NCBI GenBank assembly: GCA_029934055.1
Contig: JAOZMZ010000010.1
Coordinates: forward strand, 1-39,782
Direction: 5' to 3'
Origin: Kiritimatiellia bacterium
GTDB lineage: Bacteria; Verrucomicrobiota; Kiritimatiellia; B70-G9
DNA length: 39,782 nucleotides
In this document: positions 31,179-33,189 of the stretch, one piece after another
Position numbering within the stretch: position 1 is the stretch's first letter
Layout: each line of letters opens with the position of its first letter
Position numbers and translations under genes: made by a program
The notes under the pieces: generated by a model
The model's input: only the letters and a program-made list of their open reading frames with translations
What the model was told of the DNA's origin: nothing
Databases searched by the model: none

Positions 31179-32300
31179 TCAGCGGCCGTCTGAGATTGTA
31201 GAAGGCGGCGCGGCGAGGTTTTTCCAGAGCAGCCAGAAACACCAGCAGAGCGGGCCGAAGGGAAGGTATCCGGTGTAACCCACCAGGGGCATTTCGAACA
31301 GGTGGAACTTGTCCACGTAGGGAAGAGAGTAATTCCACTGTGGCAGGCTGTAATAGTTCCACATTTCCCAGAAGAAACCGGTTATCAATGCGGCTGCCGC
31401 GAGGACCAGCAGTTGCGTGTAATCGCCCTTGAGCAAGTCGTGGAAGGGGGTAGATGTATTGGTAAGGGCGAGTGCGCCGGCCAGGACGGCCAGCGGGCCG
31501 AGCCAGGTGGCGAAGAAGAATGCATCCGGGAAGGCGGCCAGGAGATAAAGGGCGGCGGTTCCGCCCAGCATCGCGAGCAGGCCGGCACGGCGCGGAGGAT
31601 GGAGGCGGGGTCCCTTGCGGAAACGGCGGTTGAATGCCGGGAAGGTCAGCAGCCAGTCCCGCGTTTCGAAAATTGCCGGCAACACGGTGGAGAAGCAAAG
31701 TGTCGAGTAAATGACGTAATGCCAAGGGCCGAATTCCTCAATGCCACGGTACCACCAGTTGCGCATGAAGCGGTTGAGATATTCGAAATACCACCATGAG
31801 AGAGCCGAGGCCGGGAAGAGTGCCGCGAACTTCAGCGGCGTACGTGAGAGCCGGGAAGAGCCTTGCCGGCGGTAGACCAGTCCGTCCATGACGAGGATGT
31901 ATCCCATCCAGAGAGGAGGGAACATATGCCGGCGCAACGGACCGAGCCATGTGAAGCGCCCCCAGGCACAGATCCATGCCAAGGCGGTAAGAACGAGTCC
32001 CAGGGTTCCCCAGGCGGGAAATTGCGCGGGTTTGCGGGGGCGGACCTCGGGGCCGGGGGTTGTTTGGCTGAATCCGAACCATGCCGGGCGCGCGTAGAGT
32101 ACGAGCGTGGCGATACCCAGCAGGGCGAAGGTGCCGAAAATCAGGGGGGAGAATGGGGCGTGTTCCGGCCGTGCAACGATCAGGGGCGGGTAACGCCAGA
32201 AGTGTTCTCCGAGGCCGCGTTGCAGACCTCCCGCGAGAGGCGCGGCCAACAGCGCCGCGAGTGCTCCGGCCAGAACGACTCTTTTTCGGGTGGTGGTCAT
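31179..32300 (-). CDS. Polytopic membrane protein of unknown function
   Basis: A 373-aa hydrophobic protein with about nine or ten membrane segments, starting at ATG 32300 (MTTTRKRVVLAGALAALLAA); a longer frame to 32363 adds polar, probably untranslated residues. Notable intramembrane aromatic motifs are WWYFEYLNRFMRNWWYRGIE, and near the C-terminus FFWEMWNYYSLPQWNYSLPY followed by FHLFEMPLVGYTGYLPFGPL. This W/Y/F-rich C-terminal block recurs in uncharacterised bacterial membrane proteins that I recall from other phyla, but I cannot attach a family name or substrate. It converges with the zinc-ribbon gene. The 5' flank holds the short-word mosaic. Confidence 0.72.
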   Translation of the reverse strand: MTTTRKRVVLAGALAALLAAPLAGGLQRGLGEHFWRYPPLIVARPEHAPFSPLIFGTFALLGIATLVLYARPAWFGFSQTTPGPEVRPRKPAQFPAWGTLGLVLTALAWICAWGRFTWLGPLRRHMFPPLWMGYILVMDGLVYRRQGSSRLSRTPLKFAALFPASALSWWYFEYLNRFMRNWWYRGIEEFGPWHYVIYSTLCFSTVLPAIFETRDWLLTFPAFNRRFRKGPRLHPPRRAGLLAMLGGTAALYLLAAFPDAFFFATWLGPLAVLAGALALTNTSTPFHDLLKGDYTQLLVLAAAALITGFFWEMWNYYSLPQWNYSLPYVDKFHLFEMPLVGYTGYLPFGPLCWCFWLLWKNLAAPPSTISDGR

Positions 32301-32440
32301 CACGCCGATGAATCCGGATCGGTTCACTTCGCCATTTTCATCCACCCCGGAAGTATAGCACATTTACGCCGGAGGGGCGAAATCGGATGGATACCGCAGA
32401 AAGGCGATCGGCCGCATTGAATATTTCCCGGCGGGGGGAG

Positions 32441-32686
32441 GACGGAGGACGGCGGTCGGCGGTCGGCGGTCAGAGGTCGGAGTTGTTGGGTTGCTGAGTT
32501 GTTGAGTTGTTGGGGGATGAGAGATTCCTCTGCGTGTCTTGGGCTCTTGGCGAGGGGCTCTTCTTTTCTTGCCTTTTCTTTGCGATCTTTGCGCTCTTTG
32601 CGAGAGATTCTTCTTTTCTCCTCGCCAAGCACGCCAAGGACGCCAAGGAAGGGGCGGACCGGTTGATGGTTGAGCGTTGATGGTTG
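32441..32686. repeat. Mosaic of unrelated short-word tandem repeats in a non-coding spacer
   Basis: Within the gene-free stretch 32301-32901, several different short repeats stand side by side. GGCGGTC-type heptads occupy 32441-32480. GTTGTTGAG/GTTGTTGGG-type 9-mers occupy 32481-32516. CTTTGCGAT/CTTTGCGCT/CTTTGCGAG words occupy 32573-32606. GCCAAGCAC/GCCAAGGAC/GCCAAGGAA words occupy 32624-32651. GGTTGATGGTT/GCGTTGATGGTT words occupy 32661-32686. CTTGGCGAG (32546-32554) and CTCGCCAAG (32621-32629) form a perfect 9-bp inverted pair around the third block. Translations of such blocks are the low-complexity strings of many doubtful database proteins, so I do not call a gene here. A G+C hairpin follows at about 32734-32760. 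Confidence 0.75.
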
Positions 32687-32844
32687 CTTGGGATGACGGA
32701 ATGCAGCCTTCATGATTCGTGGTTTGCGAGATGCCGCCGGGGAGAGAAATCCCCCCGGCAAGTGTGGCGGCACGTGGCGCGTGGCGCGGGATCACATTCG
32801 GCAAGCGGGAAGGGTGAGGAGAGACGCGGAATTGAGCGGAATAG

Positions 32845-32901: not shown

Positions 32902-33189
32902 TTACTTCTGGGGCGCGGACCAGAAATCTATGCGGATGCCCTCATCAGTGTTGCCGTTGGCGGCGTCCATGACCGACGAAATCTGGACAAGGCAGCAGAG
33001 CGCGCCGAGGATACATTCACCCCAGGGATAGGATCCCTGCCAGTCGCGGTTGTACCATTCACCGGTGCCGGGCAGGACGGCCGAAAGCAAGGCGGCAGCG
33101 CCCGCATCTTTCGCCGCCCGTGCGGGGACGACCGCGATGGTGGAAACCAGCATGATCACGCTCAGCAGAACTACGATGGTCTTGCGCAT
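32902..33189 (-). CDS. Small exported membrane protein, DUF5683-like
   Basis: A 95-aa protein with a signal peptide or anchor (MRKTIVVLLSVIMLVSTIAV, cleavage near ARA). The mature part has the motif ALLSAVLPGTGEWYNRDWQG, matching the S-x-x-L-P-G-x-G-x-x-Y core of DUF5683-like proteins, and a second hydrophobic span (ECILGALCCLVQISSVM). A related motif is in the TPR protein at 34138-35067. AAAGGAG lies a few bases before the ATG, and a terminator follows. Function is unknown. Confidence 0.68.
   Translation of the reverse strand: MRKTIVVLLSVIMLVSTIAVVPARAAKDAGAAALLSAVLPGTGEWYNRDWQGSYPWGECILGALCCLVQISSVMDAANGNTDEGIRIDFWSAPQK

Follow-up and report, generated by a model that had tools for sequence, protein, structure and literature searches.

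An intergenic mosaic of short-word repeats as a probable nest of gene-less ends from two classes of small mobile elements

Bacterial genomes commonly contain short word repeats between their genes. We analyzed a mosaic of such repeats in a stretch of 39,782 nucleotides from a Kiritimatiellia bacterium (here called the window), which is contig C81 of a 2.2-Mb, 115-contig, 89% complete assembly. With a probability of about 0.75, the mosaic represents a nested cluster of gene-less ends from two classes of small mobile elements of ~0.4 to 0.6 kb. Elements of the first class would consist of one ~120-aa GxxExxY protein gene between inverted arrays of 9-bp words, and those of the second of one ~120-aa four-helix-bundle (S23-type) protein gene between inverted arrays of 7-bp words. 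Blocks A and B of the mosaic are the two complementary nonamer ends, block F is a heptamer end, and block C is probably a heptamer end as well. The association of nonamers with GxxExxY proteins and of heptamers with four-helix proteins offers an explanation, open to testing, of where the widespread 7- and 9-letter repeats come from, and this link between word and gene points to a role for two proteins that are very common but of unknown function.

The mosaic occupies the gap between two minus-strand ORFs, one of 394 aa with no Pfam match on the 5′ side (31179 to 32363) and a small one of 95 aa on the other (32902 to 33189), and comprises five short-word arrays within 250 bp. TRF called five arrays in 260 bp of the mosaic; none of 200 sequences drawn from a first-order Markov model of the window reached five, the maximum being three. 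By TRF and by coordinates, the five word blocks that a first-pass annotation had described in ~250 bp are all present. On the plus strand, block C, a heptamer array of GGCGGTC/GGAGGAC (32437 to 32482) that recurs in the rest of the genome, is followed by block D, an octamer array of GAGTTGTT / GGGTTGTT (32482 to 32513); the latter array had been correctly noticed, but its word is GAGTTGTT and not GTTGTTGAG. Next comes module E, GATGAGAGATTCCTCTGCGTGTCTTGGG (32516 to 32543), a linker common to many copies. An inverted pair, previously given as 9 bp, does flank the CTTTGCG block but is perfect over 10 bp, with its left arm CTTGGCGAGG at 32546 to 32555 and its right arm CCTCGCCAAG at 32620 to 32629. 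Block A consists of three nonamer units of CTTTGCGnn (32578 to 32602), in the orientation found downstream of GxxExxY genes, and block B of three nonamer units of CGCCAAGnA (32623 to 32648), in the orientation found upstream of them. Block F, GTTGATGGTTGAGCGTTGATGG (the GTTGATGG word; 32662 to 32683), precedes module G, GGGATGACGGAATGCAGCCTTCATGATTC (32690 to 32718), which is conserved after F. The recurring unit extends to ~32759, as other copies also contain the GGGATGACGGAATGCAGC module (at 32690 here) and a GC hairpin, GCCGCCGGGG..CCCCCCGGC (32733 to 32759), which forms the downstream end of the unit.

The ORF list of the gap contains no GxxExxY or four-helix ORF between 32364 and 32901, and the window copy is thus gene-less. 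Spurious ORFs run across the arrays, e.g., at 32470 to 32646 (SLAKSAKIAKKRQEK), in agreement with the earlier suggestion that such words fuel low-complexity, doubtful proteins; the link of the words to the two protein families explains a class of spurious low-complexity ORFs and many assembly breaks. We considered that the window copy might be a 23S rRNA IVS and rejected this identity, as it sits between two protein ORFs and has no Rfam match.

A BLASTN search of the mosaic against its own genome returned 88 matches in 31 clusters, the counts being drawn from searches plus the stretches holding matches. Nineteen of the 31 clusters lie <400 bp from a contig end, where 1.5 were expected, and the copy number is therefore probably underestimated. 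The blocks follow a preferred order within clusters, forward versus reversed counts being 8 versus 1 for A to B (the token output mostly writes B as A', the reverse of A), 8 versus 0 for B to F, 6 versus 0 for F to G, 5 versus 0 for both C to D and E to A, and 4 versus 0 for N (CACGGAGnn) to C. Between 0 and 6 of 500 within-cluster shuffles matched these counts. The words are thus present elsewhere in the genome and in non-random order. TTTCCAATGATTGGAAGTTTTT palindromic word arrays come after the G module in many clusters (L043, L049, L055, and other own-genome loci), and no partner gene was found for them in the own-genome clusters; nor was one found for the block D octamers. A conserved hairpin, GGCCGACTACGCCAAGGCTACGTCGGCC, recurs within heptamer arrays of the same genome (L032, L053, and L055).

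Slippage and local recombination might have generated independent simple repeats in a weakly constrained gap, with the nearby genes being incidental. Unit counts do vary from one copy of the mosaic to the next, and earlier work has proposed that heptamers are slippage-prone (PMC4679880, introduction). However, the order of at least five blocks recurs at unlinked places, and linker modules E and G, which have no tandem structure, recur alongside the words, as expected from the first-pass view that simple slippage is not the cause. In addition, inverted arms centre on two gene families, and occupied and empty sites exist (see below). Together, the shared linker modules and the allelic sites go most of the way to refuting slippage, which we regard as very improbable.

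The nonamer words, composed of seven fixed and two variable bases, were associated with genes of the GxxExxY family (TIGR04256; PF13366 nuclease family). Scanning GTDB contigs for CTTTGCGnnCTTTGCG followed by CGCCAAGnACGCCAAG within 35 bp identified nine loci, in Lentisphaerae, Bacteroidota, CSSED10-310, and Methanoperedens, and in an isolate of Lunatimonas lonarensis, such nonamer arrays enclose a GxxExxY gene. The genome of the window itself harbors three TIGR04256 genes, on contigs other than the window's. The one on contig C74 has CGCCAAG/CGCAAAG words, those of the window itself, on its two sides (CTCTCGCCAAG / CGCAAAG), followed by the F and G modules, and its inverted-arm score of 24 lies below the survey threshold of 28. 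In a survey of loci from the top of score lists, with arms called at a best inverted match of at least 28, a threshold chosen after seeing the data, inverted word arms were found in 56/67 near flanks of GxxExxY genes versus 1/64 far flanks (p=3e-20). Typical elements end in ACCACAGAGGACACAGAGnnCACAGAG before the gene and CTCTGTGnnCTCTGTGnnCTCTGTGGT after it. This indicated that the words are not unrelated, as had first been thought, since A and B are complementary ends of one nonamer class and at least one other block belongs to a heptamer class.

The association extends across the phylum, in which TIGR04256 is present in 164/289 genomes. We detected the three-unit array pattern in 113 genomes, a reversed control pattern being almost empty, and TIGR04256 was found in 100/113 array-bearing versus 64/176 array-free genomes (p=1.5e-19, phylogeny ignored). 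Inverted nonamer arms also surround GxxExxY genes in Bacteroidota (L232 and L233) and, by reading, in Sphingomonas (L234), where the automatic inverted-arm test gave no score, whereas the arms of the Methanoperedens copy are different. Two genomes with A-B composites (L072 of CSSED10-310, and L075) had no TIGR04256 match. The words are found in several phyla and mostly between genes, in line with the first-pass annotation. A viral contig holds another GxxExxY element with nonamer arms (L251:1900-2430), beside ORFs resembling phage head-tail genes; a search of phage records gave no GxxExxY match. Published primers for an invertible promoter of Bacteroides fragilis (PMC3090145) contain CTCTGTGTTCTCTGTGGTG, a nonamer array end.

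Heptamer words showed a corresponding association with four-helix-bundle genes (TIGR02436, S23 type), at which inverted heptamer arms were present in 21/30 near flanks versus 0/29 far flanks (p=4e-10). At locus L179, the arm word of a four-helix-bundle gene, GGTTGATGGTTGATGG, is the F word of the window. In the window's own genome, GTTAATGGTTATTTGTTGATT-like words are found directly downstream of a four-helix gene on contig C74, and block C words lie ~760 bp from such a gene without adjoining it. On named plasmids of Nostoc, Calothrix, Aulosira, Trichormus, Geminocystis, Pseudanabaena, Gemmatirosa, and Riemerella, 10/10 four-helix copies have inverted heptamer arms, with scores of 34 to 63 versus 14 to 25 far away. 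On a Pseudanabaena plasmid (L259), cas6 and cas4 flank a four-helix element.

Comparisons of orthologous sites revealed occupied and empty states for element copies other than the window copy. The L083 element, which separates exbD- and exbB-like genes, is missing from genomes G278 and G129, in which the spacers hold short heptamer runs, while genome G241 has an element at this position; the L151 site is empty in genome G158. Three states were found after a TraM gene on Nostoc plasmids with ~90% identical flanks: a four-helix element in N. edaphicum (C052), a gene-less inverted heptamer pair of ~245 bp on pNsp_c of ATCC 53789, and an empty site on p057_A of C057. The site is also empty on a more distant plasmid of UHCC 0926 (75%). 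In the TraM gap of another C057 plasmid, p057_H (L265), an inverted pair of other heptamers, AATTCAAAATTCAAAATT, encloses a GC-rich insert. At the nrd site, N. edaphicum carries an element that Calothrix NIES-4105 lacks. No target-site duplication of consistent or fixed length was detected at the element ends examined. The gatA|gatB spacer (L096) was discarded as an empty site, as one of two relatives has another gene-less heptamer element at this place and the second is divergent.

These copies might instead be REP- or MITE-like composites moved in trans by a conventional transposase, with GxxExxY and four-helix genes as mere passengers. The three ~126-bp gene-less inverted-repeat nonamer units of genome G053, each with different flanks, would fit such movement. 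Nevertheless, no match to Y1_Tnp (RAYT, PF01797) was found in the window's own genome, in an assembly that is 89% complete, and Y1_Tnp genes used as a control family had no significant excess of inverted arms (3/26 near versus 0/24 far). Moreover, the small genes lie inside arrays in phylum after phylum, and no transposase is present between the arms of the GxxExxY and four-helix loci examined. We thus consider movement by a conventional transposase in trans to be highly unlikely. The gene-less nonamer units of G053 (L186, L187, and L188) are contained in a larger repeat, the outer inverted ends of which are CAGGGCAAACGCATCATCG / CATGATGCGTTCGCCCTG.

Another possibility is that the words were recruited as RNA or regulatory elements, such as terminators, regulators of translation, or stems for RNase III, and are retained between genes for their function, with the small proteins binding or processing them. 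The location of the elements between co-directional genes would be in line with such a role, as would the terminal inverted repeats of 23S rRNA IVS with an S23 ORF, which are cut by RNase III (PMC4990558), and the regulatory function proposed for TAACTGA repeats (PMC4679880). However, the RNA signal that the first-pass annotation had suggested looking for did not appear in the window copy, which matched nothing in Rfam and showed unexceptional folding (z of -0.7 and -0.9), and the presence of the elements is patchy among close relatives. We therefore judge a function as RNA or regulatory element to be improbable.

Nested ends of mobile elements thus remain our preferred reading. The first-pass annotation had proposed a composite mobile or replicative element, and the mosaic is indeed composite, dispersed, and linked to mobile DNA, albeit, in our reading, made up of nested gene-less ends of two classes and not a single composite with a mechanism of its own. 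Spread of the elements would be helped by the proteins they encode, which would act on the arrays of words. GxxExxY corresponds to Pfam PDDEXK_3, and all of 22 GxxExxY sequences have D62 and K74, with E72 kept in at least 90%, which makes an active nuclease plausible from residue conservation. The AlphaFold model, computed for two sequences, was unusable (pLDDT 39), and a PDB sequence search with GxxExxY found no significant relative. For the first class, we tentatively propose that this PD-(D/E)XK nuclease would cut arrays that are paired or form cruciforms and that the element would be copied when the cut is repaired against another array. Copying by cut and repair would favour nesting, mixing of words, and the absence of a fixed target duplication, and landing in gaps between co-directional genes would entail a low cost to the host. 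The window copy would be a passive composite, probably decayed.

A broader reading, for which we would give somewhat less than even odds, is that two parallel, minimal selfish classes spread with no classical transposase and have given rise to most of the 7- and 9-bp intergenic repeats in bacterial phyla. In each, inverted ends made of tandem words would enclose the gene for a single ~120-aa protein that is not a transposase, with GxxExxY acting as a PD-(D/E)XK nuclease on the arrays.

In the open-access literature searched, we found no paper that ties these words to these proteins. Several known repeats share some of their features. REP/BIME with RAYT (Y1_Tnp) and MITEs are likewise short, inverted, intergenic, dispersed, and partly gene-less; unlike them, the elements described here have arms made of tandem words, enclose no transposase in the loci examined, and occur in a genome without a Y1_Tnp match. 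As judged from their description, the TAACTGA repeats of Beggiatoaceae, Cyanobacteria, and Bacteroidetes resemble our arrays as intergenic heptamers with a patchy, apparently horizontal distribution, but they mostly form direct sets (PMC4679880), and MacGregor (2015) found their mechanism of transfer not evident (PMC4679880). The GGGNATC repeats of Xanthomonas and Nostoc, also compared by description only, are heptamer arrays between aligned ORFs, with ~70 inverted pairs per Xanthomonas genome; in contrast to our reading, they have been interpreted as G-quadruplex repeats, generally without association to mobile elements (Rehm 2015; PMC4692102). The closest described architecture is that of the 23S rRNA IVS with an S23 ORF, e.g., in Coxiella, which has ~430 bp, one S23 ORF of ~120 aa, and terminal inverted repeats, and which has been called selfish (PMC4990558). 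Unlike IVS, which reside in rRNA helices, the copies reported here lie between protein genes, their arms are tandem heptamer arrays, and the GxxExxY class carries an unrelated protein.
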